DNA from: a virus
Length of the DNA stretch: 41,817 nucleotides
Reading direction: 5' to 3' (one strand)
IMG/VR virus record: IMGVR_UViG_3300048584_000277
Coordinates: 1-41,817 of that record
In this document: piece by piece, positions 1,100-31,130 of the stretch
Numbering within the stretch: the first letter of the stretch is position 1
Layout of the letters: every line of letters begins with the position of its first letter
The notes under the pieces: model-generated
What the model saw: the letters and a program-made list of their open reading frames with translations, nothing else
Told to the model about the DNA's origin: nothing
Databases searched by the model: none
Made by a program: the position numbers and the translations under genes

Positions 1100-1323
1100 C
1101 GGTCCATCCCCGGCTGAGCCACGATGCGCGCGATGGTCGCTCCGATGCTGGCGGCAAAGGCCAGCAACACGAACGCGCCGCGTGGCAGTGCGTCGCCGAA
1201 CAGCGGCACCACCACTTCCGCCGCCGTGAAGGCAGCGGCCAGCAGCGAGAAGCGGATGCTCCAGGCACGTCGCAACACGCGCCGCCAGTCACCCAGCAGG
1301 CAGATCTTCGGCTTGGCAGTCAT
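1096..1323 (-). CDS. Holin-like small membrane protein (DUF7940-like)
   Basis: A 75-aa protein with two predicted membrane spans (about residues 24-41 and 48-68) and a basic N-terminus. It overlaps the upstream gene as ATGA and the endolysin by four bases, the usual position of a holin. Size, topology and context support a role in timed membrane permeabilisation. The DUF7940 link is from memory of similar phage proteins. Confidence 0.75.
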   Translation of the reverse strand: MTAKPKICLLGDWRRVLRRAWSIRFSLLAAAFTAAEVVVPLFGDALPRGAFVLLAFAASIGATIARIVAQPGMDR

Positions 1324-1620
1324 TGCACGCCACCCATCAGCTTCAGCTTGATGGTTGCTCCCACCAACAGCGCGGCCAGAATGCCGGTGGTAACCACCTT
1401 GATGAGGGTCTGCCACGCCGTGCGACGGGCATCGCGCCATGCTTCCAGCAGGTCGCGCAGTTCGCGGATGTCCTTCGCGGCATGACCGTTCTCCAGTCCC
1501 AGGTGCGCGAGGCAGCGCTCGGCGCCACGTTCGGCGGCGCGATTCAGCAGTTCATCGAAATCCTCATGGCGCAGGAGTAGCGTCGATTCGTTGGTCAGTA
1601 CATCGGTGTCGTCGGCCATC
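1320..1620 (-). CDS. Small C-terminally anchored protein of the lysis cassette (DUF6127-like)
   Basis: A 99-aa protein with a soluble, charged N-terminal two-thirds (Arg/Glu-rich helices around residues 40-70) and one C-terminal membrane span (about residues 76-94). It is the first gene of the lysis cassette and may be a second holin or antiholin. The start at 1620 has GGAG seven bases upstream. The frame stays open to 1700, but that extension would run through the three-hairpin repeat at 1633-1694, so the shorter start is preferred. Confidence 0.7.
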
Positions 1621-1632: not shown

Positions 1633-1694
1633 AAAAAATTGTCCGGAACAATTTTTCGCGTCAGCCCCGAAGGGGTGAGGCGCAGGGATGCGCC
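1633..1694. repeat. Three-hairpin dispersed element, copy A
   Basis: Read on the minus strand there are three stem-loops in a row: GGCGCA-TCCC-TGCGCC (1694-1679), CCCC-TTCG-GGGG, and AAAAATTGT-TCCGG-ACAATTTTT (1656-1634). A second copy with the same order and loops but different stem sequences is at 15834-15906 in the opposite orientation. Copy A ends just upstream of the ribosome-binding site of the gene at 1620. The AT-rich third stem stands out in this GC-rich genome. Confidence 0.75.
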
Positions 1695-1705
1695 GAACAA
1701 ATGAC

Positions 1706-1738
1706 GAAACCCGCCCAGCGTCAGCCGGAGCGGGTTTC
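1706..1738 (-). terminator. Hairpin terminator after the tail operon
   Basis: GAAACCCGC and GCGGGTTTC form a perfect 9-bp stem with a 15-nt loop, about 30 nt past the stop of the last tail gene on the minus strand. The sequence after the stem is TTTCGTCATTTG-like with only a poor U-tract, so termination may be partial or need Rho. It separates the tail operon from the lysis cassette. Confidence 0.6.
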
Positions 1739-1766
1739 AGGGGTGAAGCAGCGGAAGGGGTGTGGG

Positions 1767-1988
1767 TTAGATGTCGATGATTTCCATCGGCAAGGACGGC
1801 GCCTCGCCTTCGATGACGCCATCGCGCACGAACACGGTCTGGCCAAGCGCGGCCTCGCCGCGGGCGTGAATCAGGCCGCCGCCCGGCAAGGCGATCACGA
1901 CGCGACTGGCGCCGACTTCGATCACGATGCCGGATTGCAGCGGCGGCTCGGGTAGCAACTGCCGAAACTGTCGGTAGAGGTTATGCAT
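1767..1988 (-). CDS. Small hypothetical protein at the end of the tail operon
   Basis: A 73-aa protein with no recognised family. Its start overlaps the stop of the putative tail hub gene (ATGCATAA), so it is translationally linked to it. The sequence looks like a small beta-barrel (GIVIEVGASRVVIALPGGG, then short turns), reminiscent of OB-like small baseplate or tail-tip proteins, but that is inference only. A hairpin terminator follows. Confidence 0.75.
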   Translation of the reverse strand: MHNLYRQFRQLLPEPPLQSGIVIEVGASRVVIALPGGGLIHARGEAALGQTVFVRDGVIEGEAPSLPMEIIDI

Positions 1989-3867
1989 GGCACTCGACGC
2001 CCAGCGTTTGCCAAACCTCCGGGAAGTTGGCTTCGACGCGCGTGGAGCGCACGATGCCGAGCCGCGCGACGCTGCCGTCCTGGTATTCGATGAAGGTCCC
2101 GGGCTCGACGATGCCGGTCTCGGGCAGCACCGGCAGGCGCAGGCCCACTTCGAATTGCTGTCCCGTGTCTGCCAAGATCGCGGTGCCGCGCTGGCGTGCC
2201 GCGACGGCCTCGGTGATTAGGGCATCGACGACCATTGGCGCGACCCGATTGCCGGCTGTGCCGGTGCGTGTGACCTGGCCCAGTACGCCGGCAGACTGGC
2301 CCGACACGAATACCCGGTTGTACGCCGGCTTCTCCATCCAGCGCACCGATTCGCGCGAGACCGCAGCAACCGGTAGCACCAAGTCCGGCGTCACCGCATG
2401 CCAGTCCCACGGCGCCACGGGGTAGCGGTGGCGCACGCGCATGATCGCGTCGGTCGGATGCGGCAACAGGTAGCCACCCGGTGCGGCGGCGATGGCGGCG
2501 AGCGCATCGATCCAGGTGCCCTGGTGCGCGAATACGCCTGCAGGCACGTTCCAGTCGCTGAGCGCCCAATCGATGGTCCAGCCAATCGGCACACCGTTGA
2601 CGGTCAGGACGTCGTCCATCAATTGCCGCGCCGTGCGCGGGTTCGGATTGGCGAAGTGCATCACCGGCGCGTAGGGCGCCGAAAGCGCTGCGGTGCGGCC
2701 GCGCCCGGACAGACGTACGTTCGCATCGCCAAAGCTGCGCTCGCGGCTCAGGTTCTCGGCGAGCACGCGGAAATCAGTGCCGTTGACGTGCGCCACGAGT
2801 TCCACCGGTGGCGCGCCATCGGTGGGTGCGATCAGCGCCTCGGCAATGGCGGGCAGTGTCGCCTCGAAGCCCCAGGCCCAGGAGTCGACGTCGAGACTCA
2901 GCGACAGCGAGATCACCGGCACTGGCGCGCCATCCGGCCAGCGATGCAGCGTGACGTGGTTCAGCACGACATAGACCCTTCGGATTGGAACCACGACCGG
3001 GCCGTCCTGGCCCGGATCGGGGCGCCGTTCGCAGACGAACACCAGGTTGCCGTTCGTGGCTGCCAGTGCGGAGAAACGCAGGTGCGGATTCGGCGTGTAG
3101 CAGGGAACAAAGGGCGGCTCGGGGTCGTCTGGACGCACGGGATGGCGACCGGGCGGTGGCCGCATCGCGTTCTGCCAGCGCGCTCCCGTCCAGCGACGAA
3201 GCGCCGTGGCGACCTGGATGGCTTCGAAGAAGCGCCGGCTCGGGAGCATCTGCGCCATATCAAAGCGCGAGGTGGTTGGCCGATGCCGATCCCGCAGTCC
3301 GTCCTCGTGATGCAGCCGCCGCGCCAGCGCGTTGAGGCGCTTTGCATTCTCGTAGCGCACTGGGCCTGACGTGCGCAGACGCAGCGATTCATCGTGAGGA
3401 ATCCGGAATGCTCCGGGCGAACGTGCCGCAGCGCCTTGAAACCGCGTGGTCGTTGAGACTTGCGCGCGCTGCAAGGTCGCAGCGCGCCTCGACGTCACGT
3501 TGGCGTCCAGCACCCACCCATCCTGCCAGGACGTGCCCGCGGCCGTCGGCAGTTGGTCGGTGGCGGCGGTACGGTGCTCGGCGCCCTCCTCGAACCCACA
3601 CCCGCGTTGCCAGGACGATGCCGTCCGCCCTACCAGCGGACGCGCTGCCCGCGAGGCGTAGCGTGCTTCGACGATCATCTCCATCGCCGGGAGCGTCGCA
3701 ACCAGCGTCGCCGACGCATTGGGTATGGCCAGCGCTTCGAAGCGCAGCGCCGGCAATGCGCCGACCAACTGCGCATCCTGCGGAGGCTGCGATCCGCCCG
3801 GATCGCCACCCAGCACGAGGTGCGTGCTGCCAGGCGGGTGCGCCAGCCGCAGATCGATGGACGCCAT
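1981..3867 (-). CDS. Putative tail hub or tail-tip protein
   Basis: A 628-aa tail protein. The C-terminal half has features of tail hub proteins of the gp27/gp44 kind: alternating beta strands, an LSGRGRTAAL stretch (roughly residue 385), TARQLMDDVL shortly after, and a final region of short beta repeats (about residues 520-620). The N-terminal third is rich in Arg, Ala and Thr and has no recognised motif. It lies six bases after the upstream gene and overlaps the downstream small gene. The assignment is from gene order and local pattern; an adhesin-type tip protein is possible. Confidence 0.65.
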   Translation of the reverse strand: MASIDLRLAHPPGSTHLVLGGDPGGSQPPQDAQLVGALPALRFEALAIPNASATLVATLPAMEMIVEARYASRAARPLVGRTASSWQRGCGFEEGAEHRTAATDQLPTAAGTSWQDGWVLDANVTSRRAATLQRAQVSTTTRFQGAAARSPGAFRIPHDESLRLRTSGPVRYENAKRLNALARRLHHEDGLRDRHRPTTSRFDMAQMLPSRRFFEAIQVATALRRWTGARWQNAMRPPPGRHPVRPDDPEPPFVPCYTPNPHLRFSALAATNGNLVFVCERRPDPGQDGPVVVPIRRVYVVLNHVTLHRWPDGAPVPVISLSLSLDVDSWAWGFEATLPAIAEALIAPTDGAPPVELVAHVNGTDFRVLAENLSRERSFGDANVRLSGRGRTAALSAPYAPVMHFANPNPRTARQLMDDVLTVNGVPIGWTIDWALSDWNVPAGVFAHQGTWIDALAAIAAAPGGYLLPHPTDAIMRVRHRYPVAPWDWHAVTPDLVLPVAAVSRESVRWMEKPAYNRVFVSGQSAGVLGQVTRTGTAGNRVAPMVVDALITEAVAARQRGTAILADTGQQFEVGLRLPVLPETGIVEPGTFIEYQDGSVARLGIVRSTRVEANFPEVWQTLGVECHA

Positions 3868-3873
3868 CGGTGA

Positions 3874-4263
3874 TCACCCCAGCAGTCCCGTCAGGATGCG
3901 GGTGTAGCCGCCCGCGTACAGCGTGGTCGTTGGCAGACGCAGTTCGCCCACGCCGTCGAGATCGGACGCATCGCAATCCCACGCCAGCGCGCCGTTGCCG
4001 TTGGCGATGCGCACCCAGGTCGCCTCGCCGGTCGTGAAGATCAGGGCTTCGTTGGTCGGGGCCACTTCGAGCACGCCGTCGACGACCGTGCCGAGCGGTT
4101 CGGCCAGCACGATGGACGCGAGCAGCGGGCCCTGTGGCGCTTCGCCAAATCCCGGTCGCGGACCGGCGTAGACGTGAGCGCGCGCCTGCTCCGTGCCGAG
4201 CGCCAGGAAGGTGATGACGCCCTGCAGCCGGTATGCGTTGAGCTCGTCGGAGATCTGGATCAC
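3874..4263 (-). CDS. Tail-tip associated hypothetical protein
   Basis: A 129-aa protein of unknown function. The GTG start at 4263 overlaps the upstream stop as GTGA; the frame is open much further upstream, but that part is the shadow of the neighbouring gene. The sequence is rich in beta-forming residues and Gly, ending in LYAGGYTRILTGLLG, and suits a compact beta-sandwich virion protein. Its place between two larger tail proteins argues for a tail-tip role. Confidence 0.7.
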   Translation of the reverse strand: MIQISDELNAYRLQGVITFLALGTEQARAHVYAGPRPGFGEAPQGPLLASIVLAEPLGTVVDGVLEVAPTNEALIFTTGEATWVRIANGNGALAWDCDASDLDGVGELRLPTTTLYAGGYTRILTGLLG

Positions 4264-5231
4264 ACCGGCGCTCCCGCCATCGGTTCGGCGCGCAGGTTGT
4301 CGGCGACCACGGCTCGGAAGTTGTGCTTGTGGTCGTAGGCGATCACCAGATAGCGCGGCACCGGGCTGATCCGCTCGAAGCGGTAGACGCCGGTCACCGC
4401 ATCGCTCCAGGTCTCGCGCACCACCGCATGTGTGCGCTCGTCGAACAGCAGCACGCGCCGAGACACCGGACGATCCTCGGGCAGGTTCTTCTCTCTCACG
4501 GTCCCGGTGATGTGGTGATCGCCGGCGTAGTAATGGTTGCGCGTGCCGGCCAGACGATGAAAGGCGCGGTGCGAGTAGCGCAGCAAGGCGGCCAGATCCG
4601 GCACTGGCTGAGTGCGTCCTACGAGGGCTGGCAGCGACCGATAGTGCGCGGGCGGCGCATCTGGCAAGGCGCTCGGCACGCCACCGGTGACGCGGTGCAC
4701 GCGCAATGTGAGGCCATAGCCATAGATGCACGGCCGGAAGCTCGCGTAGTGGCGCTTGTAGCCCTCCCACACGACACCGTCGTTGTCGCTCACGCGGTAC
4801 TGCCAGATGTTGTCGACGCCGCGCTTCACGTCGACGCGCAGCGTCCGGCGAGCGCCAGTCACCGCCCACGGTGCAGCGGCGTGCGCGGTCAGCTCGTACT
4901 GGTTTCCAACGGCATCCCAGAAGCTGTGATGCCACTGCTGCTGCCAAGCGATCAGCCGGTGACCCTCGTAGGCGCCCGAGCCTGTCCAGAGCCAGAACCC
5001 GAAGCAGGTCGATGAGTAGGTGATGGCCATCACCTCCGCGTCGATCTCGAACCAGAAGTTCTCCGTCATCTCGGCCGCATCGATGCGCCAGAAGTTCTGT
5101 GCCTGCGAGAACACCAGATCGACGGCCTGCGCTGCCTCGTTCCACGTCGGCGTGACGCTGCCGGCGCCGCCCGCGCTGGCGAACCCCGCAGGAATGCCGG
5201 CAATGAAATCCTCATCCAACGGATAGGCCAC
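4260..5231 (-). CDS. Tail protein with lectin-like and transthyretin-like regions
   Basis: A 323-aa protein with a GTG start at 5231. Residues 1 to about 185 are rich in Trp, Phe and Tyr (FWFEIDAEV, FGFWLWTG) and look like a concanavalin-type beta-sandwich. Residues from about 230 to 315 resemble the carboxypeptidase regulatory (transthyretin-like) fold: a GTV strand, R-VLLFDE, T-SDAVTGVYRFERI, then YLVIAYD. Both folds are common in phage adhesion or tail-decoration proteins, so a role in binding host surface sugars is plausible but not shown. Confidence 0.7.
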   Translation of the reverse strand: MAYPLDEDFIAGIPAGFASAGGAGSVTPTWNEAAQAVDLVFSQAQNFWRIDAAEMTENFWFEIDAEVMAITYSSTCFGFWLWTGSGAYEGHRLIAWQQQWHHSFWDAVGNQYELTAHAAAPWAVTGARRTLRVDVKRGVDNIWQYRVSDNDGVVWEGYKRHYASFRPCIYGYGLTLRVHRVTGGVPSALPDAPPAHYRSLPALVGRTQPVPDLAALLRYSHRAFHRLAGTRNHYYAGDHHITGTVREKNLPEDRPVSRRVLLFDERTHAVVRETWSDAVTGVYRFERISPVPRYLVIAYDHKHNFRAVVADNLRAEPMAGAPV

Positions 5232-5234
5232 GAC

Positions 5235-6500
5235 TCAGGGCCTCCACGGGCCGGTGATGTCGAAGGCGAAGCCGCTGGTGTTGCCCTCGTGGGCGTAGTC
5301 CAGCGTGACGATCAGGAACTTGCGCTCGGGGTAGCCGAGCACCTGGTCGATCAGCGTCAGGTGCGCATAGGGCTGGTTCTGGTGAATCCAGTACATGCCG
5401 GGCAGAAACCCGCGCAGGTGCCCGCTGCTCTCACGCAGGTAGATCGGATGCAGGATCAGGCCGTAGTCGGGTCCGTTCGGGAACGGGATGCTGCCCGAGC
5501 GCCCCGAGACGTTCTGATTGTTGCCGTCGTTCAGCGACAACAGCCCAAGACGTACATTGCCGCCGACCTGGGTGTAGTCGCGCATGCAGATCTTGCCGGT
5601 GGTATCCAGCGAGTGCGTCGAGTAGGAATCCTGGTTCGGGTAGCTGTTCGGCCACTCGCTGACGGTGCGGTAGCGGTCCGAAGCGGTCAGGAGCGACGCG
5701 TAGTTGTCGCCCGGCTTGTAGCTGTCGAAGTCGGTGAAGGTGTAGAGCACGCGGCGGTCGCCACCCCAGCCGGAGGCGCAGGCAAGGAAGAAGCCGCGGT
5801 CATCACCGATGAGCACCCAACTGCGCGCACCGGCGCCATTGTCGCCGTAGGTCTCGGGCGTGTTGTTGCGGGCGAAGTACCACTTGAACCAGCCCGAGTA
5901 CATCGAATTGCCGCTGCCCGAGGGCAGTTCGTTGCGCGTCGGCGCCGCCGGATCGAACGGTGCGCGCGCGCCGACGAAGGTGTCGATGTCGACCATGTCC
6001 TCGGCCAGCGTGACGCGTCCGAACTTCGCCCAGGTCGTCGTGTAGCCCTCCGGCAAGCTGTCGTCGACGCGCAGGAACGGACGATTCGAGAGCGGATTGG
6101 GCGTGTGGTAGGCGCGCTTGTTCTCGCCGGTGAAGGCAATCTCGAAGCCGAGCGGCGCGATCTTGGCGCTGATGCCGAGCACTGTTGTCGCCGGCGATGC
6201 TGGTTCGCCCGCCACGCCGAACCGGATGCTGTCCTGAGTGATGGCGGTGATGGTGAAGTCGCCGTTGTACTCGGGCTCCTCGCAGCCTTCGATGCGAACG
6301 ACCTGGTCGACCATATAGCCGTGCGCCGAGCCCACGATGGCAGTCGCGGTGGCCCCGTCGCGGGTCAGCGTCGACACCGGTTTCAGGTGGAAGCCGTTGA
6401 CCAGCAGTGCGTCGAGCAGCGCGGTGAGGCTGCCCCAGTTGTTGGTCAGCACCGGCGCGCCGGTCATGCCGCTGTGCATCCACTTGACCTTGTTGCTCAC
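5235..6500 (-). CDS. Tail structural protein of unknown function
   Basis: A 421-aa protein rich in Tyr, Trp, Asn, Ser and Gly, as in secreted or virion-surface proteins. The GTG start at 6500 has AGGAG eight bases upstream. An early segment (about residues 45-110: GSAHGYMVDQVVRIEG, then YNGDFTIT) looks like the beta-strand pattern found near baseplate or tail-tip domains. No catalytic motif was seen. It follows the 1201-aa repeat protein and precedes the lectin-like gene, so it is assigned to the tail tip. Confidence 0.75.
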   Translation of the reverse strand: MSNKVKWMHSGMTGAPVLTNNWGSLTALLDALLVNGFHLKPVSTLTRDGATATAIVGSAHGYMVDQVVRIEGCEEPEYNGDFTITAITQDSIRFGVAGEPASPATTVLGISAKIAPLGFEIAFTGENKRAYHTPNPLSNRPFLRVDDSLPEGYTTTWAKFGRVTLAEDMVDIDTFVGARAPFDPAAPTRNELPSGSGNSMYSGWFKWYFARNNTPETYGDNGAGARSWVLIGDDRGFFLACASGWGGDRRVLYTFTDFDSYKPGDNYASLLTASDRYRTVSEWPNSYPNQDSYSTHSLDTTGKICMRDYTQVGGNVRLGLLSLNDGNNQNVSGRSGSIPFPNGPDYGLILHPIYLRESSGHLRGFLPGMYWIHQNQPYAHLTLIDQVLGYPERKFLIVTLDYAHEGNTSGFAFDITGPWRP

Positions 6501-6529
6501 GAATCAGACTCCTAGAAATCAGGTTTGCG

Positions 6530-9500
6530 TCAGGGGCGATCCACGTCGCCACGCACCAGCAAGGTGAAGGCATCGCGGGTGACGGTCTCCGGGCCTTGCT
6601 GGATGGTGCGCACGACCCACACCGGGAACAGCGCGCCAATGGTGTTGAAGCGCAGCACGTTGCCGGCGGCCCAGCCCGAACCCCAGCCGAGCGCACGCAG
6701 CGTGAAGTAGGGTTTGCCGGTGGCCGGGTTGGTCGGCGCGAGATCGTTGGCGGTGGTGCCGGTGGCGATCACGCCGACGTGCTCGCCGATGACCTGGAAC
6801 GCCGTGGTGTTGGTGAATTGGATTGCCCAACGCTCGGTGATGGCACCGGCGTTGGTCACCGTGATCGGCGCCAGCACGTCGTTGAACGTGGCCGTGGCCG
6901 CATTGCCGACCAATGCATCAGTGAACGCGCCATTCCATGTGGCCTGATCGAACAGCCGCGACACGTAGGCGCGCAGATCGCCGGAGACCAGCGCAGAGGA
7001 AATGTTGGAACCGGTGGGATAGTCGTGGGTGATCTGCCGGGTGAAGGCCAATCGCCCCGAGATCTGCACATCCGACACCTGCGCCATATCCTCGATGCGA
7101 TGCTCGACGGTGACCGGCTGTGCGATGCCGGTGACGTCGGTGAAGGTCACGCGGCCCGCTTCCAGATCGACCGTGAAACCTGCCGTGACGACCACGCCGT
7201 TGCCATCGAGCACGCGCACTCGCGACAGGCGCACGCGATTGCAGTCGATGACCTGGCCGGCGCTCGCGGTCAGCGGGCCGACCGTTTCGGTATGGCCGAT
7301 CACCGCGAAGTCGCCCATCCGGAAGATCGGCACGCGCCCGTCCTGCGGCAGTCGTACCGGATCGAGCCCGATCAGGTCGGCATCAAGCGGCAGGTAGGAG
7401 TACGCGACCGCGTTGTACTTGATGGTGTCGGCGAACACCGGCGCCGGCTTGAACACTTTGGGCACGCCATCGAGCACGACGACGCCATCGGGATCGAACC
7501 AGATCTCGTCCTCGTTGCCGGCGGCGACCACCCACGACCCGAAGCGTGCGCGGACGACGCCGGTCTCGTAGTCGATGGCACCGGTGATGCCGGCGCCAGC
7601 GATGACGCCGTGGTTGTCGGCGCTGACATTGATGGTGCCTCCGGTCAGCCGAGTGGCCAGCAGTTGCAGGCTCGACGGCCGCACCGGCGAGGCCGGAATG
7701 CGGAAGGTGACCTCGTCGACCGGCGTGCCATCGAGACTGGTCAGCAGTGAGCGCAGTTGGACCGCCGTGCCCTGACCCGGTACCCACGCGCTCAAGGTCA
7801 CCGCGCCGGTGGCGTAGTTGATCGCGCCAGCCAAGGTCGCTGCGCCATTCACCGGATTCAGGTCGTAGTACAGGCTGCCGAGGCGGTCGAAATAGGTCTT
7901 GCCGCCGAGCGTGAAACCGACGCTGCCAGGCACGATGGGCTCAGCGAAGCTCGGCGTCAGATCCAACGCCAGGCCACTGGCGGTGAAGGTCTCGGTAACC
8001 GAGTTCGAGGTGCCGGTGGCGCGATAGCGCACCTTGGCCCACGCCGTCTCGTCGATGGGCATGGAAGCACCCGCGGTCACGTACTCCCAGTGCGAGAACA
8101 CGTTGCGATAGACCGGCACCAGGGTTCCATCGGCGTTGCGCGTGAGCCCGATCTGGGTCACCAAGTAGCGCCCAACGGGAATGCGCACGATGGTGTCGGG
8201 CAGGAAGCGCACGACGCCGGTGGCGTAGTTCACCGTGCCGTAGATGAAGCCTTGCGTGTCCTTGAGATTGCCGTTGCGGTCGTCGCTGACAATCTTGATC
8301 GGATCGACCGGGCGCACCAGTTGCAGTTCGGCCGGCGTCGTCGAGATGTAGTCGAAGGTCTCGATCAGCAGGTTCCACTCCAACTCGACCGTGCCCGGGA
8401 TCAGTCCGTCGAACTCCACTTCGACGTCGATGCGACCTGTGCCATCGCGCATCGGCGCGTGGAATTCCTCCTCGGTTGGCGGGCCCCAGGTGTAGGCGAC
8501 GTTGTAGGTCTGGCCGCCGGCCGGCAGCGCGGCGGGCGTGAACTGGACCAGGCCCGACTGGTAGTGGATGGTGCCGGTCGCCGCGCCGGTGATGCGTCCT
8601 GCGCCATCATCGGTGGCGGTTCGCGGCGCGCCGTCATTCCAGGTGATGGTGACCGACTGCGGCGTGATGCCGGATTGCGCCAGTTGCAGGGAGACTGCGG
8701 GCGGCGCGATGGTCTGGTCGGAGCGGTTGAAGTAGTTGGCCTTGCCGCCCCAGGCGTAAACGATCTCGCTGCCGACATCGGGCAGTGCGCCCACGGTCAC
8801 AGCCACCGTGCCGGAGCCATAGTTCACCGTGCCGACGCCGTACTCGGGACTGCTGCCCTTGAGCACGCCGGCGCCGTTGTCGCGCAGGTCGTACCACTTG
8901 CCCTGGGCGCGGTAACTGACCTGCAGGGTGCCGGGCGCGGGGCTCGGCAGGATGGTCAGCACGTAGTTGTAGGCGCGGTTCTCGATGTCGACGCGCACAC
9001 CCGCGGTGTCGGCGACGCGGATCGGTGCGGCGGCCGGCCGGAATGTGATGGTCTTGGTGCCGCCATAGTTCGGCGCACTGGTCGCCATCGCGATTTGGCC
9101 GCGAGCGTAGTTCACCGTGCCGATGACCGTGGCGCCGGCCATCAGCTGGCCGCCGTTGTCGGTCAGCGTGGCGCCACTGACGCTGATCGACAGCGTGCCG
9201 GGCTGGATCGCATTGCCGACCGACAGCACGGTGGAGGCGTTGAAGCCGACCGAGGTCGTGTAGCTCACGGTGCCGTTGGCCGACTCGACCAGGGCTTCGG
9301 AGGTGCCGCCTGCGGTCAGGTCGAGCAGTGGCGTCTCGGTCTGCGCCGAGGGCACCAACTGGGTGAAGATGCTGCTGACGCTCGCGGCGACATCGCCGAT
9401 GGCGATCGGCTGGGTCGTCTTGACCACGCCGCAGTATTTGGCGGCGTCGGCAACGACGGTGTCGCGCGTCTTGGTCTTGCCCGGCGCCATCGTGAACAGG

Positions 9501-10135
9501 CGATCCGGCGGCGAGCCGGGAAAGTCGAAGCGCAGCGCGTCCGACAGATCGCAGGTGACGACCACCGCTTCGTAGTCGACGATCCCGCTTCCCGAGCCAT
9601 AGCTGAAGGTGCGCGTTTCCGAGGCGACGCGGGTGACGCGGATGTACTGCGAGAACTCGTTCGCAAGGCCCTCATTGGCAACGAGGTACAGGGTCTTGCC
9701 GATGGCGGGCAGTTCGGCGCCAACACGCTGGAACAACTGGACGCTGCGCTGGCCGGTGATGTGGTTCTCCAGCAGGTAGCCGTTCCAGAGCGAGCCCTTG
9801 TTGAGGTAGGCCTCGATGCGGTCGCGCGCGTTGGTGCGGCGGTCGAAGACCTCCTCAGTCGAGAAGATCGTGACCGCGACGCGCGGATCGCTCGGGGCCT
9901 CGGCGACGATGACGTTGCCGCCCAGGTACGTGTCGGTAGTGTCGGTTTGCACGCTGGCGAAGACCTTGCGCAGATTGACCCGGCCACCGGCGCGATCCAT
10001 CTCCGAGATGTCGTTGAACAGCGAATTGCTAGCGCCATCGACGATGACGGTGGAGGTCGGGGCGCCGCCGCCTTCGGCGACGTCGTCCATGACCTGGCTG
10101 GCAACGAGCTTCACGTCGCCTACGAGAATCGGCAT
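6530..10135 (-). CDS. Large tail protein with six beta-domain repeats
   Basis: A 1201-aa virion protein. A motif of the type G-[TA]-[VI]-[NHD]-Y-x-x-G occurs six times: GTVNYARG (about residue 339), GTVNYGSG (435), GTIHYQSG (521), GTVNYATG (633), GAINYATG (770) and GAIDYETG (852). Each follows a PGTL/PGSV-type strand by about 25-45 residues, so the middle is probably a chain of small beta-sandwich domains. The N-terminal about 250 residues are non-repetitive and may anchor it to the tail. The 3.6-kb length and position just after the tape measure gene point to a tail-tip or central fibre protein. AGGA precedes the ATG. Confidence 0.8.
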   Translation of the reverse strand: MPILVGDVKLVASQVMDDVAEGGGAPTSTVIVDGASNSLFNDISEMDRAGGRVNLRKVFASVQTDTTDTYLGGNVIVAEAPSDPRVAVTIFSTEEVFDRRTNARDRIEAYLNKGSLWNGYLLENHITGQRSVQLFQRVGAELPAIGKTLYLVANEGLANEFSQYIRVTRVASETRTFSYGSGSGIVDYEAVVVTCDLSDALRFDFPGSPPDRLFTMAPGKTKTRDTVVADAAKYCGVVKTTQPIAIGDVAASVSSIFTQLVPSAQTETPLLDLTAGGTSEALVESANGTVSYTTSVGFNASTVLSVGNAIQPGTLSISVSGATLTDNGGQLMAGATVIGTVNYARGQIAMATSAPNYGGTKTITFRPAAAPIRVADTAGVRVDIENRAYNYVLTILPSPAPGTLQVSYRAQGKWYDLRDNGAGVLKGSSPEYGVGTVNYGSGTVAVTVGALPDVGSEIVYAWGGKANYFNRSDQTIAPPAVSLQLAQSGITPQSVTITWNDGAPRTATDDGAGRITGAATGTIHYQSGLVQFTPAALPAGGQTYNVAYTWGPPTEEEFHAPMRDGTGRIDVEVEFDGLIPGTVELEWNLLIETFDYISTTPAELQLVRPVDPIKIVSDDRNGNLKDTQGFIYGTVNYATGVVRFLPDTIVRIPVGRYLVTQIGLTRNADGTLVPVYRNVFSHWEYVTAGASMPIDETAWAKVRYRATGTSNSVTETFTASGLALDLTPSFAEPIVPGSVGFTLGGKTYFDRLGSLYYDLNPVNGAATLAGAINYATGAVTLSAWVPGQGTAVQLRSLLTSLDGTPVDEVTFRIPASPVRPSSLQLLATRLTGGTINVSADNHGVIAGAGITGAIDYETGVVRARFGSWVVAAGNEDEIWFDPDGVVVLDGVPKVFKPAPVFADTIKYNAVAYSYLPLDADLIGLDPVRLPQDGRVPIFRMGDFAVIGHTETVGPLTASAGQVIDCNRVRLSRVRVLDGNGVVVTAGFTVDLEAGRVTFTDVTGIAQPVTVEHRIEDMAQVSDVQISGRLAFTRQITHDYPTGSNISSALVSGDLRAYVSRLFDQATWNGAFTDALVGNAATATFNDVLAPITVTNAGAITERWAIQFTNTTAFQVIGEHVGVIATGTTANDLAPTNPATGKPYFTLRALGWGSGWAAGNVLRFNTIGALFPVWVVRTIQQGPETVTRDAFTLLVRGDVDRP

Positions 10136-10151
10136 GGGAGTCCTGTGGGTG

Positions 10152-10559
10152 TCAGAGCTGCAGCAAGCGCAGCGTCAATCGGTAGCGGTCGGCATCAGAT
10201 CGCGCGGGGAAGCCGAGCACGGGCTCGGCCTCGACGCAGAGCTCGTCGTGGCGAAAGGCCACCTCGAAGCTGCGGCCGTCGTGCAGGCGCAACTCGAAGC
10301 GCCCGTCGTCGGCGGTCAACGGCACACTCGCCCACGCGTGCAGGGTGCCGACCGTGGCGCGTGTGACCCAAGCCATGTCGAACGCGCCTTCCAGCGTGAT
10401 CGGCCGCCCGGCCTGCCGCGTGGCCGACTGCACCAGGAGCGCGCCGGTGATCAGGTAGCTCGTCGACGCCACGGCGGGCGTCCACGCGTGCTCATCGACC
10501 CACAGCAAATCGTCGGGCAAGGTCAAGACGTCCCCGTTCGCGAGGTGTTGGAGTTGCAT
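10152..10559 (-). CDS. Small tail protein after the tape measure gene
   Basis: A 135-aa protein of unknown family with mixed alpha/beta composition and a C-terminal LTLRLLQL strand. It lies between the tape measure gene and the large repeat protein, where lambda-like phages encode minor tail or tail-tip assembly proteins such as gpM. Context, not a motif, supports the call. The upstream Shine-Dalgarno is weak, so translation may be coupled to the upstream gene. Confidence 0.7.
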   Translation of the reverse strand: MQLQHLANGDVLTLPDDLLWVDEHAWTPAVASTSYLITGALLVQSATRQAGRPITLEGAFDMAWVTRATVGTLHAWASVPLTADDGRFELRLHDGRSFEVAFRHDELCVEAEPVLGFPARSDADRYRLTLRLLQL

Positions 10560-10569
10560 GGGGTACCGG

Positions 10570-13500
10570 TCAGAGCGTGCGGGTGCGCGCTGCGCTCAGC
10601 ACGCGCAGCAGGCGGGCTTCGTCGCGTTCGTCGATGGTCGCGGCCACCTTGTGGGTGCCCGCCGCGAGTTCGACGCGCACCGTGCGTGTGGGCGGGTGCT
10701 CACCGAACAGGGAGGGTCGCGGTAGGCCCGCGCCGGTGGGCTTCACCAAACCGCCTTTGGCGAAACCTTGGACACTGCGTAGCGTTCGTGCCGCCAGCGC
10801 TTGGGTAGGCGCCTTCATGCCGTTGATCGCCTCGAAGAAGCCGACGCCGAACTTGGACACCGTCGCGCGGTTCACAACGAACTCGCCCGGCGTCAGCAGC
10901 GCGGGCACCGTGTCGGACGAGGCGATGCCGCCGCGCGCGAAAAACTGGCCTTCGAGGCTTTCCATGTAGGTGATCAGGTCGCGCTCGAGGTCCTTGCCGA
11001 CGAGCAGCGCTTGCGCCATCGCCGAGCGCCAGCGGCGCTTGATGCCCTCGACCATGCCGCCTTCGAGTCCGGTCAGAGTCTTGATCCCGACCAGCGGCTC
11101 CAGGTAGCGCTTGTCCACACCCGCTTGCTGGCCGTAGTGGCGCTCGGTGTTGAAGCGGAACAAGGGGCTGATAGCCGCGCCGCCCGACCGGGCCAAGGCC
11201 GAGGCGTAGCTCATCATGCCCTGATAGCCCAATTCGACGAGCTTCAAGGCCTCGACCACCGAGCGGTTCCGCTTGGGACGCTGAGGCGGCTCGCGGTTTG
11301 GCTTCGACGGTGGTGGCGGCGGCTCCGGCGAGATCCCCGCCGGGCCGCCACTGGCGAACCGCGCGACCTTGGTCAGCCGCGCCAGCGCCGCGATGCCGTA
11401 CTTGCGCACTGCCGCCTTGCGAATCACAAACGCGCCGGCATCCAGCGTGCGCGGCACGGTGTCCGCATCGCCGCTACCCGGCACCTTGCCGCCCGCCATC
11501 CGCGGAAATAGCGGTGCCACCGAGCCACCGCGTGCAAAGCGCGGCAGGCCGCGGCCGACCATGCCGCCGGTGGCGTTGGTCTCGACCTTGGTGACATAGA
11601 TCGTGTGCGTGCTCGTGGTGTGCATGCCCGCCAGGCTCATCACCTCGGCGCGGGCCGCATCGGCGTTGTGCTGGACTAGGTGCCGCGACTCGGTCTGCAG
11701 CTGCGCGAGCGCGCCGATCTGGCGCTCGACGTTGGTGACCGCGGCTTGCGCCTTCTCAGTGGAGACCTTGAGCTCGAACTGCGCCGACTCATTGGCGTAC
11801 GCCTTGAGCCGGTCCAGCGCCTCCTGCGCCTTCGTGAAGTCGGCGTTGACCGGCAGCGTCTGGCCATCTTTCAGGCGTTGCTCGTACTCGCGCAGGGTCT
11901 GCTCGGCTTGCTGCAGATCGGCCTGGATCTTCAGCAGGTACTCCTTCTCCTCCAGCGCTGCATCCAATCGGTCGAGCGCTTGGTCCAAGCGCTCGGTGTC
12001 GGCGTTGATGGTGAGGGTCAGGCCATCGCGTAGCTTCGCGGTGATCGAATCGATCTGCGACTCGGTCTCGCTCAGCGTGCGCTGGATCTCGTTGCGCGCC
12101 GAGCGCGCGGCATCGGCCGCGCTGCGGTGAGCCTGCGCCTCGGCATCGAGCGCGCGGTTCAAGATCTCCTCGGCCTCGCGGATGCGGTCAATGGACTGGC
12201 GCACGCCGTCCTTGCCTTGGGCGATCTGCTGATCGGCTTCGCGCGCTTTGGCCGCCAGCTGTGCGCGCAACTCGCCGGCCTGCTGCATCAGGCTGTTGGC
12301 GGTCTCGAACTCCTTGCGCGCGCTGGCTTCGCGCGCCTGCGCCTGCAGCTGCGCAATCTGCGTCGCCGACTGCTCGGCCTGCTGACGCGCCTGCTCGCCG
12401 CGCTTGGCCTCCGCAGACTGGGTGTTGGCGACCTGCACAGCGAGGTCCATGGCCTTCTGCGCCAGTTGCCTCGCCTGTTCGAACTCGCCTTGGGCCAGGG
12501 CTTCGCGCGCCTTCTGCTGCAGCTCGGTAATCTGGCGCTTGCGGTCCTCGGTGGCCTCGTACTCGCTCATGCCCTGGCGGCGGATCTCGCGGATGCGTTC
12601 TTCCGTCGACATCGTGAGCTGACGCTTGGCTTCCTCGATGCGCTGTACTTCGGCGAGATGGCGATTGACTTCGGCGTTCAGCGCATCGATGTGCTGCCGG
12701 TACTCGCTCAACGCCTGCATGAGTGTCTGGCGCTTGGTCGCCAGAATGTCGTTCTCGACGCGTTGGACATTGGCCAGACGTTCGTTATCGGTTTGCCCCT
12801 GGCGCGCCGCGGCCTCACGGCGCGCGGTGGATTCGGCGTCGATCAGTTGCAGGACCTGGGTCGAGGCCTGCTGGCGCAACGTCGCCTGCTGCGTCAGCGC
12901 TTCCGACAGGTTCTTGGTCGACTCGACGATGCGCTCGCGCTCGGTCGTGCGCGTGGTCTGCAGCTCCGCCTGCTCCTGGGCGAAGCGGGCCTTCACCGCA
13001 GTGACCTGCTGCTGCAGGCTGGCCTCGACCAGCGCGGTGAAGCCCTTGTATGCCTCGGCCATCTTGGCGGTGGCGTCGTTGACTGTGCCTGATGCGGCGC
13101 CGGCCACTTGTTCCACTTCGCCGAGACGCGCCTTCAGCTTCTCGACGGCGCCATGCACGGCTTCGATGCCGCGTCCAACCGCTTCCTGCGTGCCCTGGCG
13201 CACGGCCTCCAGACGCTTGGCGATCTCTTCGGCAGCACTGGCCGCCGTGTTCATCGCGCCTTGGGCGGCCTCGCTGCCTTGCTGGGCGTCGGCGTACATG
13301 TCGCGGAAGATCTGGTTCATCTGCGCGAGGCGCGCCTCGTGGCGCGCCGTCGCCTCGGCCATCGTGTCGCCGGTGAAGATCGCGGCGAACGATTCCCACT
13401 GGTACTGCAGGAACTCGATGCTCTTCATGAGCACCTCGACCATGGCTACGCCGGCCACGCGGACGACCGCGAACTTCTCGCGCAACCAGGTGCCGATCTC

Positions 13501-14613
13501 CCAGCCGATGATCGCGGCGGCCAGCACCGCGAACGCTGCGCGCAGCTTGCCAACGGTGGCGATGGCATTCGTGAGCGACAGGTTGGCCGCGGCCCAGGCG
13601 GCGCTGGTGGTGGTCGCCGCAGTGACGGCGGCGGCGCCGGCAGTCTGCCAGGCGATGATCAGGGCCGGGATCATCCGGTAGATCAGCACGCCGAGGCCGA
13701 TCTCAGCGACCCGCGTGAGCCACGCCATCACCGTGTCGAGGTTGTCTGCCAGCCACGTGAGGGCTTCGGCCAGCTTCTTGGTGAACCCGGTCGACTCATC
13801 GACGCGGCTGATCCACTGACCGAAGGCGTTGGTGAGACGGGTGAACGCCGCGCTGACGGTCTGCGGAAGTTGGGTGTACTCGGCGGCCAGCACATCTTTC
13901 TGGCTCATCAAGGCGTCGATGACCACATCGGCGGTCAGCCGGCCTTCCTCGGCCAGCTTGCGCAGGCGGCCGATCGGCACGTCCAGGCCATCGGCGAGCG
14001 CCTTGGCAAGCCGCGGGCTGTTCTCGACGACGGAGTTGAACTCCTCGCCGCGCAGCACGCCGGCCGACAGCGCCTGGCCGAACTGGAGCAGCGCGGACTG
14101 CGACTCGGACGCCGATGCACCCGAGATGCGCAGCGCCTGCGAAATGCTCTCGGTGAGTTCGATAGCCTGCCGCTGTTCGCCACCCAACTGCCGCACGGCC
14201 TGCTGCAGCTTGCCGTACAGCGTCGCCGTCTCCTGGATCGGCACGCCGATCCGCTGGGCGACCGCGAACAACTCGCGCTGGGCGGTGAGGTACTCGCGCT
14301 GTCCGGCGGTCGCGAGCGACAGGCGCGCGGACATCATGTTCCAGGCATCGGCGATCTGGACCAGTTCCTGCACCTGACCCGCGGCCCAGTTGATCGTCAG
14401 GAACGCGAGCAGTTGGGTCTTGGCGCGCGCGATCTGATCGCCGAAGGCCGACATGCCGGCCTTGACCTCGGCCATGCCGGCTGCGGCTTTGTCGCCGGCA
14501 GTCTTGGCGCTGGACGCGAGGTCGCCGAGGCTGCGCTCGGCCGAGTTGATCGCGCGCTTGAGCCCTTCGTCGGCGCCATCCAGCGCAACGAGGACCGAGA
14601 TGCGTTTGGCCAC
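10570..14613 (-). CDS. Tape measure protein
   Basis: A 1347-aa protein, the longest gene in the window, that would set tail length. An N-terminal tape-measure domain (about residues 60-270, with GVLRGEEFNSVVENSPRLA) is followed by hydrophobic segments (about 305-345 and 360-375). A long coiled-coil region rich in Ala, Gln, Glu and Arg follows (about 400-1010). The C-terminus has two copies of a common tape-measure end motif: DADTVPRTLDAGAFVIRKAA and SDTVPALLTPGEFVVNRAT. The start is GTG, one base past the stop of the upstream gene. If tail length scales at about 1.5 Å per residue, the tail is roughly 200 nm. Confidence 0.93.
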   Translation of the reverse strand: MAKRISVLVALDGADEGLKRAINSAERSLGDLASSAKTAGDKAAAGMAEVKAGMSAFGDQIARAKTQLLAFLTINWAAGQVQELVQIADAWNMMSARLSLATAGQREYLTAQRELFAVAQRIGVPIQETATLYGKLQQAVRQLGGEQRQAIELTESISQALRISGASASESQSALLQFGQALSAGVLRGEEFNSVVENSPRLAKALADGLDVPIGRLRKLAEEGRLTADVVIDALMSQKDVLAAEYTQLPQTVSAAFTRLTNAFGQWISRVDESTGFTKKLAEALTWLADNLDTVMAWLTRVAEIGLGVLIYRMIPALIIAWQTAGAAAVTAATTTSAAWAAANLSLTNAIATVGKLRAAFAVLAAAIIGWEIGTWLREKFAVVRVAGVAMVEVLMKSIEFLQYQWESFAAIFTGDTMAEATARHEARLAQMNQIFRDMYADAQQGSEAAQGAMNTAASAAEEIAKRLEAVRQGTQEAVGRGIEAVHGAVEKLKARLGEVEQVAGAASGTVNDATAKMAEAYKGFTALVEASLQQQVTAVKARFAQEQAELQTTRTTERERIVESTKNLSEALTQQATLRQQASTQVLQLIDAESTARREAAARQGQTDNERLANVQRVENDILATKRQTLMQALSEYRQHIDALNAEVNRHLAEVQRIEEAKRQLTMSTEERIREIRRQGMSEYEATEDRKRQITELQQKAREALAQGEFEQARQLAQKAMDLAVQVANTQSAEAKRGEQARQQAEQSATQIAQLQAQAREASARKEFETANSLMQQAGELRAQLAAKAREADQQIAQGKDGVRQSIDRIREAEEILNRALDAEAQAHRSAADAARSARNEIQRTLSETESQIDSITAKLRDGLTLTINADTERLDQALDRLDAALEEKEYLLKIQADLQQAEQTLREYEQRLKDGQTLPVNADFTKAQEALDRLKAYANESAQFELKVSTEKAQAAVTNVERQIGALAQLQTESRHLVQHNADAARAEVMSLAGMHTTSTHTIYVTKVETNATGGMVGRGLPRFARGGSVAPLFPRMAGGKVPGSGDADTVPRTLDAGAFVIRKAAVRKYGIAALARLTKVARFASGGPAGISPEPPPPPSKPNREPPQRPKRNRSVVEALKLVELGYQGMMSYASALARSGGAAISPLFRFNTERHYGQQAGVDKRYLEPLVGIKTLTGLEGGMVEGIKRRWRSAMAQALLVGKDLERDLITYMESLEGQFFARGGIASSDTVPALLTPGEFVVNRATVSKFGVGFFEAINGMKAPTQALAARTLRSVQGFAKGGLVKPTGAGLPRPSLFGEHPPTRTVRVELAAGTHKVAATIDERDEARLLRVLSAARTRTL

Positions 14614-14616
14614 GGA

Positions 14617-15261
14617 TCAGTCCAGGGTTTCGAGGTGGTGCTGGATCGCCGCGGCGAGGCGCGGGATGTGCCCGGCCACCAGTCGCTCGATGTCCAGTCG
14701 CTTGCGCAGTGCCACACGCGGCACCAGAACGGCGATGGGAATGTCATCGCCGCGCTTGAGCCTGCCGATGCCTTCGGCCTTGCGGTAACGGCGCTTGAAG
14801 CCCGAGAGCGTGCGGTCGTGGTCCTTGATGTTCTCGGCCATCAAGACGATGTTTCCGCGCTTGTTCTTGATGAAGTAGGCGTTGCCGCCACGCATCAAGG
14901 CGGCGACCTGCGCCTTGAATTTCTTGCGACCGACGCGCCCATGCAGCGGGATCAGCATGCGTCCGGCAATCTGGCCGCCACGCTCGTGCAGGCCTGCCCA
15001 CTGGATGCCCGAGCCAACGTACAGGGCCGGCAGCCGGTTCTTGTCGCGGTCGAGCACCTTGGCAGTGAAGCCCTTCACGAAGGACTTTCGCACCACGGTC
15101 ATGCGCTCGGCGACATGGGCGCGTACCGCCTGCTTGACCTCCACCGCCTGACTCGCGATGCCGCGCGCCACCGCCTTGTGCGCCTTGTCGCGGAACTCGC
15201 CGCCCCAGCGGCGCAGTTGCGCTTTGGCGGCGGCACTATCGATGCGGATCGAGATGCGCAT
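14617..15261 (-). CDS. Minor tail protein (DUF6441/HK97 gp10-like)
   Basis: A 214-aa basic protein with HAER-type N-terminal helices and an RGGNAYFIKNKRGNIVLM segment typical of DUF6441-like minor tail proteins, as I recall that family. The ATG at 15261 overlaps the end of the tail-chaperone frameshift product (stop 15236) by 26 bases. An upstream start in the same frame (15315) is possible but would extend the overlap. Position between the chaperone and the tape measure gene supports a tail-assembly role. Confidence 0.72.
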   Translation of the reverse strand: MRISIRIDSAAAKAQLRRWGGEFRDKAHKAVARGIASQAVEVKQAVRAHVAERMTVVRKSFVKGFTAKVLDRDKNRLPALYVGSGIQWAGLHERGGQIAGRMLIPLHGRVGRKKFKAQVAALMRGGNAYFIKNKRGNIVLMAENIKDHDRTLSGFKRRYRKAEGIGRLKRGDDIPIAVLVPRVALRKRLDIERLVAGHIPRLAAAIQHHLETLD

Positions 15262-15921
15262 GGGTGGTGAGTCGGTCGAGGGTCTGGTCGAGGTGGCGGG
15301 CATCGCCACGGGCACCGAGTGCGATCAACGACAACAGCCGCGCATCGCGCGCGGCGTCCTCGCGGCTCACGGCCGCCAGAAAGCCGCGCACTTGCGCCAG
15401 CGTGTAGTCGTGGATGTCGGTGAGGCGGTGGCCGTGGCCGATCAGGGACTGGGCGGCGTCGAACCATCCGGGCTCGTCGCGTCGTCCACCTGGGCGAACA
15501 GCGCGCTGAGGCGCGGCATCACCTGGCGGGTAAAAAAATCCGCGTTGACCTCGATGACCGTGGAAGCGAGCAGGACCGCGTCATCGGCGTCGAGGTCGTC
15601 GACCCACTCGCGCGGTTTGCCGACCGCAAGCGCGATGGCCGACAACAGATCGCCGCCGCGTTCGCCGATCACCGCCCACCAGTCGATGCCGGTTCCGGTG
15701 ATCTGTTGCATCACCGGGGTGATCGCGCGCAGAAAGCCGGGCAACTGACCGACCTTCAGCGGCTTCACCGTCAGAGTCTCTCCGGCGATGGTCAGGGACA
15801 CGCCTTGCGGCAGGAGTTTTTCCAGATCGCTGCGGACTCCATCCCTGGAGTCCGCCCCTTCGGGGCCAGCCTGGCGGCTGTCAAAATTCGTTCCCGACGA
15901 ATTTTTCATGGTCGTGCTCAC
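15236..15921 (-). CDS. Tail assembly chaperone fusion (gpGT-like) by -1 frameshift
   Basis: From the GTG at 15921 the frame reads to a T TTT TTT slippery heptamer (15538-15532). A -1 slip there re-reads base 15532 and continues through TAC CCG CCA without a stop to TAG at 15236, giving a 228-aa product. The downstream segment (DEPGWFDAAQ, then LSLIALGARGDARHLDQ) has no good start codon of its own and is coding-like. This matches lambda G/GT, in which a minor -1 product of the gene before the tape measure protein is needed for tail assembly. The frequency of the slip cannot be judged from sequence. Confidence 0.78.
15442..15921 (-). CDS. Tail assembly chaperone (gpG-like)
   Basis: The unshifted 159-aa product. 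The core (about residues 34-145: VSLTIAGETLTVKPLKVGQL, then a helical part) looks like phage tail chaperones that sit between the major tail protein and the tape measure protein. The GTG at 15921 overlaps the upstream stop as GTGA; an ATG four codons later (15909) is an alternative. Residues 5 to about 30 are encoded by the three-hairpin repeat at 15834-15906, so this N-terminal tail is probably an insertion and not part of the fold. Confidence 0.8.
   Translation of the reverse strand: MSTTMKNSSGTNFDSRQAGPEGADSRDGVRSDLEKLLPQGVSLTIAGETLTVKPLKVGQLPGFLRAITPVMQQITGTGIDWWAVIGERGGDLLSAIALAVGKPREWVDDLDADDAVLLASTVIEVNADFFTRQVMPRLSALFAQVDDATSPDGSTPPSP
15532..15538 (-). other. Slippery heptamer for -1 ribosomal frameshifting
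   Basis: Seven T residues on the minus strand fall in the X XXY YYZ phase of the gpG frame (codons GAT TTT TTT ACC). Both tRNAs can re-pair perfectly after a -1 shift. It is a rare homopolymer in a GC-rich gene, 90 bases before the zero-frame stop. No obvious downstream hairpin was worked out. Confidence 0.75.
15834..15906. repeat. Three-hairpin dispersed element, copy B
   Basis: On the plus strand: GGACTCCA-TCCC-TGGAGTCC (15834-15853), CCCC-TTCG-GGGG, a short spacer, then AAAATTCGT-TCCCG-ACGAATTTT. Order and loops match copy A (1633-1694), while both outer stems differ in sequence but stay perfectly paired. The element is translated on the minus strand as the N-terminal tail of the tail chaperone. 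Confidence 0.75.
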
Positions 15922-28234: not shown

Positions 28235-28458
28235 TGAATACGTCTGCTGCCGAACGGGAGCAGGCGCTGCGGTGGCTGATCACCAACCGGCGTCCGGACG
28301 TCTCCATCGAACAGACCGTGCGCTTAATGAGCGCACTGCTGCCTCGCGATCTCTCCACGATGCAACTGCTGCGGCGCATCGCGGAGGAGGAAGACCCCAA
28401 GGAGACTCCGCACCGATCTAGCTGGCGCATTCCTCCTGGTCTGCCGCCTCACGGATAG
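28234..28458 (+). CDS. Small hypothetical protein, cassette gene 8
   Basis: A 74-aa protein coupled to gene 7 by a one-base TGATG overlap. It is basic with helical segments (AAEREQALRWLI, TMQLLRRIAEEE). No family was recognised. Its last 41 bases overlap the end of the convergent methyltransferase gene (stop at 28418), so transcripts from both sides would collide here. Confidence 0.65.
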   Translation: MNTSAAEREQALRWLITNRRPDVSIEQTVRLMSALLPRDLSTMQLLRRIAEEEDPKETPHRSSWRIPPGLPPHG

Positions 28459-29659
28459 CCTGCTTGCCGGTGAAGTCCTCCCACCGGCGCACGATCACGT
28501 CGGCGTACTTCGGGTCCAGCTCCATCAAGCGCGCGACGCGCCCGGACTTCTCGGCGGCAATCAGCGTGGTGCCCGAGCCGCCAAATGGGTCGAGCACCAC
28601 ATCGCCGGGGCGTGAGCTGTTGCGCAGCGCGCGCTCGACCAGTTCGACCGGCTTCATGGTCGGATGCAGGTCGTTCTTCTGCGGTTTCTTGATCTGCCAG
28701 ACGTCGCTCTGGTCGCGGTCGCCGCACCAGTGGCGCTCGGCGCCCTCGGGCCACCCGTACAGGATCGGCTCGTACTGGCGCTGGTAGTCGGCACGGCCCA
28801 GCGTGAACGTGTGCTTGGCCCAGATGATGAACGTCGACCAGTGGCCGCCGGCCGCGCGGAAGGCGGTCTGCAGTACGTCCAACTCACTCGACGACATGGC
28901 CACATACATCGCGCCATCGCAGCGCTCGACCATCGGCGTCAGCGCCGCCAACAGGAAGTCGGAGAAGCCATCGCCCAGGTTGTCGTTGAGGATCGCGCGG
29001 TCCTTGCCGCGCAGCTTGTCTTTGGCGCTGTTGGCGTAGTTCACGTTGTAGGGCGGATCGGTGAAGACCATAGCCACTCGCTCCTCGCCGAGCAGTGCGT
29101 CGTAGCTCGCCGCCAGGGTCGCGTCGCCGCACAGAAGGCGATGCTGTCCCAGCTGCCAAATGTCGCCGGCGCGCGACACCGGTGTATCCGACACTTCCGG
29201 GACGGCATCTTCATCGGTCTGCCCTGACACATCGGGCTCGTCACCGGCCATCAGTTCTGCAAGCGCGTCGGCGTCGAAGCCGGTGATGTCCAGGTCGAAG
29301 CCAGCGTCCTGCAAGTCCGCGAGCTCGACCCGCAGGAGATCCTCATCCCAGGTCGCGTTCTCGGCGATGCGGTTGTCGGCCAGTACCAGCGCGCGACGCT
29401 GCGTCGGCGTCAGATGGTCCAGCACCACGACCGGCACCGTGTTGAGCCCGAGTTTCTGCGCCGCGGCGAGGCGCCCATGGCCGGCGACGATGACGCCGTC
29501 GCTACCGGCGAGGATCGGGTTCGTGAATCCGAACTCCGCGATGCTGGCGGCGATCTGCGCCACCTGCGCGTCCGAGTGCTGGCGCGCATTGCGGGCGTAG
29601 GGGATGAGCTTTTCGGTGGGCCACGGCTCGATCTTCTCGGCCAGCCAGGAGCGCGTCAT
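28418..29659 (-). CDS. ParB-DNA methyltransferase fusion with DPPY motif
   Basis: A 413-aa protein. Residues about 1-110 form a ParB/Spo0J N-terminal-like domain (GHGRLAAAQKLG at 60-71). A linker of about 50 acidic residues leads to an N6/N4 beta-class methyltransferase domain with DPPY at 201-204, GW-GAER motifs in the middle, and a SAM-binding DPFGGSGTT at 357-365. DPPY usually indicates N6-adenine modification. It overlaps the upstream fusion by four bases. The most likely role is DNA modification to avoid host restriction, with the ParB domain as a nucleic-acid reader. Confidence 0.9.
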   Translation of the reverse strand: MTRSWLAEKIEPWPTEKLIPYARNARQHSDAQVAQIAASIAEFGFTNPILAGSDGVIVAGHGRLAAAQKLGLNTVPVVVLDHLTPTQRRALVLADNRIAENATWDEDLLRVELADLQDAGFDLDITGFDADALAELMAGDEPDVSGQTDEDAVPEVSDTPVSRAGDIWQLGQHRLLCGDATLAASYDALLGEERVAMVFTDPPYNVNYANSAKDKLRGKDRAILNDNLGDGFSDFLLAALTPMVERCDGAMYVAMSSSELDVLQTAFRAAGGHWSTFIIWAKHTFTLGRADYQRQYEPILYGWPEGAERHWCGDRDQSDVWQIKKPQKNDLHPTMKPVELVERALRNSSRPGDVVLDPFGGSGTTLIAAEKSGRVARLMELDPKYADVIVRRWEDFTGKQAIREAADQEECAS

Positions 29660-31056: not shown

Positions 31057-31078
31057 GCGGATGCGGGTCCTGAAAATG

Positions 31079-31108: not shown

Positions 31109-31130
31109 GGAGTGGAATCGATGGTGGGTG

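Follow-up and report, generated by a model that had tools for sequence, protein, structure and literature searches.

Two copies in a phage genome

What are two short sequences that share a row of hairpins in one phage genome and that differ in the letters of their stems while the pairing is kept? They lie in the viral record IMGVR_UViG_3300048584_000277, whose whole stretch of 41,817 nt is here called the window; copy 1 is read on the minus strand, copy 2 on the plus strand. An earlier note had proposed a REP-like (repetitive extragenic palindromic) or transposable palindromic element. I consider it likely that a non-autonomous mobile palindromic element of about 66-78 bp, which carries no gene and came from gammaproteobacterial host genomes, was recently inserted at both places.

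1633..1698, minus strand: copy 1, short (66 nt) subfamily; leader GTTC, hairpin 1 GGCGC-ATCCCT-GCGCC, TCA, hairpin 2 CCC-TTCG-GGG, hairpin 4 AAAAATTGT-TCCGG-ACAATTTTT, end T; without a counterpart at the orthologous site in L296-L305
15832..15906, plus strand: copy 2, long (75 nt) subfamily; hairpin 1 GCGGACTCC-ATCCCT-GGAGTCCGC, CCCTTCGGGG, extra hairpin 3 AGCCTGGCGGCT, hairpin 4 AAAATTCGT-TCCCG-ACGAATTTT, end T; without a counterpart at the orthologous site in L216-L221 and many more

The hairpins are present where the note had placed them, and folding prediction and covariance-model scores agree on this; its bounds (1633-1694 and 15834-15906) gave the right places, while the exact inserts listed above come from the comparison with empty sites. 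Both copies share, in this order, a short leader, hairpin 1 (loop CATCCCTG), CCCCTTCGGGG and an AT-rich hairpin 4 of 9 bp with a TCCNG loop. The order of three hairpins described for both copies is therefore correct for the shared hairpins only, as the long form has one additional hairpin between CCCCTTCGGGG and hairpin 4, without equivalent in copy 1. All hairpins are predicted on either strand of both copies (z -4.0/-4.7 and -7.1/-7.1), and none of 200 dinucleotide shuffles matched the fold of the copies. The covariance model R1, built from 40 aligned copies with both window copies among them, scores copy 1 at 78.6 bits (E 3.6e-15) and copy 2 at 76.2 bits (E 1.2e-14).

Empty sites and ends

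Neither copy is present in the closest relative phage, whose major tail protein has 96% amino acid identity to that of the window; for the tail protein next to copy 1 the figure is 94%. Where copy 1 is inserted, L296 reads GTCATTT^CTGGAG, and the window has 66 additional bases between T and C; where copy 2 is inserted, relatives read CGCT^CATGG in element orientation, and the window has 75 additional bases. The junctions are ambiguous by up to 3 T's (copy 1) and by 1 T (copy 2), and beyond these 1-3 T's no target site duplication, which the earlier note had suggested looking for, was found at either empty site. Both insertions appear to be young, because they are absent in a relative with such high identity at the neighbouring proteins. 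Run on the window together with related phage loci (56 sources in all), R1 gave only the two window copies and one match at chance level (E 0.86).

The two copies share 68% identity with each other, against up to 88% and 91% with copies from bacterial genomes. Divergence from each other inside the phage was rejected on these numbers, and the copies are, by the same comparison, best read as two separate acquisitions of different subfamilies. Two related phages (L004/L005) have another copy, with a different stem, in the same spacer at GGGTTT^CG of the terminator-like hairpin upstream of the same gene, 7 nt from the window site, which is an independent use of the same small region.

Over 104 flanks the preference is TT^C, with T in 76% at -2, T in 65% at -1 and C in 69% at +1. 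The element begins with A or G and ends with T; in the aligned copies the leader is mostly (A/G)(T/C)TC or GATG. Head-to-tail arrays have the element itself as their unit, with 4 units of ~68 in G144 and 5 or more units of 72 in G155, and therefore confirm the ends that are seen at the empty sites. In several other genomes the insertion is in sequence resembling a tRNA T-loop, GGATT^CGAACC. Copies were also seen within tandem repeats of 160-217 bp (L051:5765-6165, L348:1544-1956, L344:2372-2883), with tRNA-like 3' sequence in L051 and L344.

In being small, without a transposase gene, and present or absent at orthologous sites, the element resembles a miniature inverted-repeat transposable element (MITE). 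It departs from MITEs in lacking the target duplication and also terminal inverted repeats, its ends being (A/G)TTC.. and ..TTTGT. No open reading frame was found within it.

Distribution of the element

The earlier note had considered mobility or a host-repeat origin unlikely if only these two copies existed anywhere. Very many copies exist elsewhere, and the covariance-model search it had proposed revealed a large dispersed family. All copy counts given here are lower bounds. The core pattern occurs at at least 116 loci in bacterial genomes, the majority with the full layout. With R1, 20 genomes proved to have 1-37 copies each, and of 274 genomes sampled from the class at least 112 have copies, with few candidates scored per genome; the highest number, 67, is reached in the complete genome G155. 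With an enterobacterial consensus, the element is observed in 1063 of 5426 Escherichia coli genomes, mostly as a single copy and often inside enterobacterial repetitive intergenic consensus (ERIC) repeats, in 168 records of Salmonella plasmids, and in the Mu-like phage PhiKM. BLAST of copy 2 against phages and plasmids gave no match, because the subfamilies differ and the enterobacterial consensus is needed.

One rival that the empty sites and this distribution settle outright is that of ordinary intrinsic terminators or chance hairpins. Copy 1 does adjoin a terminator-like hairpin; the same ordered motif at E about 1e-15, the precise presence or absence at the insertion sites and the very many copies elsewhere refute this explanation, which I regard as hardly credible.

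The ERIC is an element of 127 bp with TA ends and a TA duplication at its target (PMC2759123). Like the present element it is a dispersed enterobacterial repeat, and many copies sit within ERICs; it differs in that it serves here as the target. In Kosakonia and E. coli, copies are located inside ERICs, with at most two fixed positions in any one of them. A composite ERIC with two elements fills the argP-rpiA spacer of E. coli E2348/69; used as a query, it was covered to at least 80% in only 7 of 5375 matching genomes, and sampled others had no insert. Such composites were observed at different E. coli loci (L359:3958-4195, L361:3958-4195), an indication that the composite is moved as a whole. 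Insertions inside ERICs have reportedly been noted before, so that parts of the family may already have been described; searched as text, neither the nucleotide core nor the peptide DSRQAGPEG led to anything relevant. A few hundred bases from copies, near-threshold matches to Rfam TwoAYGGAY (CATGGATG hairpins; L150:1946-2009, L152:1707-1770) may represent another dispersed palindrome.

Pairing in the stems

That both arms of the outer stems changed together, as the earlier note had pointed out, is borne out by massive double substitutions in the terminal hairpins. Pairing in the terminal helices reaches 98-99% in alignment A1, where double changes are frequent; covariation is 0.545 (A1) and 0.578, compared with at most 0.11 for slid controls. 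As A1 had been chosen for Watson-Crick pairs in hairpin 4, I redid the count on 109 distinct model hits (A2), where, of about 1,480 paired cells in the terminal helices, 6 are G-U (~0.4%), against 33 mismatches. The middle hairpin has ~9% G-U in A2, in a part where the alignment is less certain. Selection on RNA would tolerate G-U, yet G-U is no better tolerated here than a mismatch; its near absence points to DNA hairpins, with the pairing kept at the DNA level.

The note's conclusion of selection for structure stands insofar as the stems are maintained, but selection need not be the sole cause, since correction of quasipalindromes could produce part of the pattern. Taken to its end, this would mean that the compensatory changes arose from template-switch correction without selection, and that the element is inert and owes its copies to recombination. 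Stem positions do swap among all four Watson-Crick pairs nearly without one-sided intermediates, a lack that could reflect such correction. However, the loops and the hairpin order are conserved across the class, and T^C joining at unrelated sites needs a joining activity beyond correction alone, so that I consider this explanation unlikely.

A different rival places the function in RNA. The loops of the GGA strand (CAGGGAUG; CNGGA) mimic CsrA/RsmA sites, and the copies would then be regulatory RNAs or sponges. The hairpin 1 loop on this strand presumably matches the CARGGAUG motif of CsrA from systematic evolution of ligands by exponential enrichment, and there are weak Rfam matches to RsmY, at 22 bits far under the gathering score of 57. 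Next to the rarity of G-U in the terminal hairpins, where it is not favoured over mismatches, the opposite orientation of the two window copies relative to their adjoining genes argues against this rival. It also draws on a catalogued small RNA (sRNA) that coincides with copies, as set out below. Altogether an RNA element is quite improbable, and the likeness of the loops to CsrA/RsmA sites, which is one of sequence, should be taken as a lead only.

The sRNA in question is RF02902, AaHKsRNA22 (Aggregatibacter sRNA 22). Rfam gave nothing at the gathering threshold, and RF02902 surfaced at a lower one. Its hairpins and linkers follow one another as in the element when read on the opposite strand (AC-hairpin-GAAC-hairpin-GGCCCC..GGGGCGAG-hairpin-GA), where RF02902 aligns over its full length to copies with 34 bits (L152) and 32 bits (L130), the gathering threshold being 39.8 bits. 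Window copy 2 scores 16 bits, and copies in G270 score above the threshold. In a class-wide search its matches in G268, G039, G145 and G024 coincide with R1 hits, and G270 has 13 dispersed copies. It is unlike the element in being catalogued as an sRNA rather than as a mobile element, in that most copies elsewhere stay below its gathering threshold, and in that the copies in G270 are AT-rich and have a AAGTGCGGT-type uptake signal as neighbour. With good but not complete confidence, RF02902 can be regarded as a branch of the element family. At L371 and L379 of G270, RF02902-type copies directly adjoin this AAGTGCGGT-like sequence.

Insertion into protein coding genes

The genes and signals next to the two copies are the following.

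1320..1619, minus strand: DUF6127 phage protein (Pfam PF19622, E 6.3e-29); its 5' leader contains copy 1, placed upstream of GGAG
1707..1737, minus strand: terminator-like hairpin (AACCCGC..GCGGGTTT), seen in the sequence, directly upstream of copy 1
15442..15909, minus strand: tail assembly chaperone gene (PHROG 1442, E 4.6e-31); copy 2 immediately follows the ATG (15909-15907) and lengthens the reading frame by 25 codons
15918..17054, minus strand: major tail protein (PHROG 807, E 4.4e-81), the query for finding related phages

Relatives of the tail protein are present in the genomes G379 (83%) and G459 (79%). Further along the window, parts of 28444-34784 (primase, methylases) are 76% identical in DNA to Acidithiobacillus phage AcaML1.

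The earlier note had estimated that a copy fused to the coding start of the tail chaperone adds about 25 residues. By comparison with relatives, whose chaperone reads M-SDLEKL or M-NDLEKL without added residues, copy 2 adds exactly 25 (KNSSGTNFDSRQAGPEGADSRDGVR) between M and SDLEKL. This is one of three cases of an in-frame copy directly behind an ATG, the others being TerL of PhiKM (MTKSSGVILNAAGGGPEGMSPMDGR.., copy at L364:3001-3079) and PglZ of G155 (MTNSSGTNLDSRQAGPEGAASMDGR..). A similar partial match falls in a 'hypothetical protein' of many E. coli genomes, probably the same prophage gene as the PhiKM TerL locus. The PglZ gene is part of a BREX operon (L341:3527-19385, with BrxA, PglZ, BrxHI, PglX and BrxC according to PADLOC), where 11 of the 12 copies examined have a net length divisible by three and four of these lie inside the PglZ reading frame. 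Inserted peptides can survive because the common subfamilies of 75, 72 or 66 nt have stop-free frames.

The closest analogy is found in the Rickettsia palindromic elements (RPEs); these short palindromic repeats enter the coding sequences of unrelated proteins without a shift of frame (PMC10969869, PMC2229807). With its recurrent insertions that keep the frame, in the tail chaperone of the window, in PhiKM TerL and in the BREX genes of G155, the present element is RPE-like in this sense. However, RPEs are about 105-150 bp, have terminal inverted repeats of about 12 bp and are known from Rickettsia, whereas the window element is a row of short hairpins of 66-78 bp, has no terminal inverted repeats and belongs to the Gammaproteobacteria.

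Mobilisation

Precise insertion at T^C (mostly TT^C), defined ends, the lack of target duplication, multi-copy dispersal, tandem arrays and nesting in repeats are all observed. The element would move as a folded DNA strand, and an enzyme supplied in trans would recognise the two terminal hairpins, with TCC in each loop, and join the ends at T^C. Such an enzyme is probably not a resident REP-associated Y1 tyrosine transposase (RAYT).

Of the earlier proposal, the transposable element of host-repeat type is supported by empty sites, dispersal, tandem arrays and insertion into ERICs, and 'REP-like' fits only loosely, as GTAG tag, RAYT linkage and target duplication are all missing. GTAG and CGTC REPs and REPINs are likewise small dispersed palindromes that form doublets and are partly intragenic, and CGTC REPs, too, have no known dedicated transposase (PMC3733652, PMC3116915). 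They differ from the window element, which has no tag at the hairpin foot, has several different hairpins in a fixed order and shows no linkage to RAYTs. CGTC REPs are defined by CGTC 5' of a stem of 8-9 bp and a CCA-type tail (PMC3733652); in the aligned copies hairpin 4 has GTT(C) 5' and TC 3', which places the element outside that superfamily.

A classical REP or bacterial interspersed mosaic element unit moved by a RAYT would account for short dispersed palindromes, both intergenic and intragenic and sometimes inverted doublets, as well as for the lack of a target duplication, and a T at both cleavage points would suit HUH-type chemistry. Against this, the GTAG tag is absent from the aligned copies, and near the REP-associated transposases, which the earlier note had suggested looking for, 29 of 30 Y1_Tnp loci have no R1 match within about 1.5 kb, the remaining one (L208) having a weak match of 22 bits. 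Moreover, Y1_Tnp matches are missing from six of the 20 copy-bearing genomes (G001, G003, G004, G006, G008, G010), which have as many as 24 copies, and there is no replication-strand bias. I therefore find this rival very unlikely; the element works like REPs and RPEs, yet it is not a RAYT-linked REP.

Palindromic elements derived from IS200/IS605, the palindrome-associated transposable elements, have hairpin ends and neither terminal inverted repeats nor target site duplications, which is also what the window element looks like. They differ in that no matching autonomous element was found and in that the lagging-strand orientation bias is missing. Matches of CATCCCTG..CCCCTTCGGGG without hairpin 4 (e.g. 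L013, L024, L016), tried as half-elements around a transposase, resemble other palindromes or chance.

Several points weigh against recent mobile insertion as set out here. Neither an enzyme that mobilises the element nor an autonomous form of it came to light, in a search that was not exhaustive for the latter. In five complete genomes, with copies placed relative to dnaA and dif, the two replication strands carry 60:60 copies, though single genomes vary, which argues against a simple lagging-strand mechanism on single-stranded DNA, as this would be expected to show a bias. Many enterobacterial copies travel inside ERICs, so that their spread may be passive there, and the perfect stems could also stem from mutational quasipalindrome correction.

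Implications

One phage's pair of hairpin rows has led to precise, apparently recent insertions of an element that is found across the Gammaproteobacteria, including E. coli. The exact ends and the T^C target may aid the search for the mobilising enzyme, which is likewise being sought for other REP-like repeats that have no RAYT. I tentatively propose, somewhat short of an even chance, a class-wide family of hairpin-row mobile elements that would be moved as DNA hairpins by a non-RAYT enzyme, whose stop-free forms of 66, 72 and 75 nt would write new peptides, repeatedly behind start codons, in phage structural genes and throughout a BREX operon, and of which 'sRNAs' such as AaHKsRNA22 would be copies. 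The element offers a mutation-tolerant way of adding tails of 22-26 residues to essential phage and defence proteins, and the observations suggest that, in at least one case, mobile DNA has been catalogued as an sRNA family.

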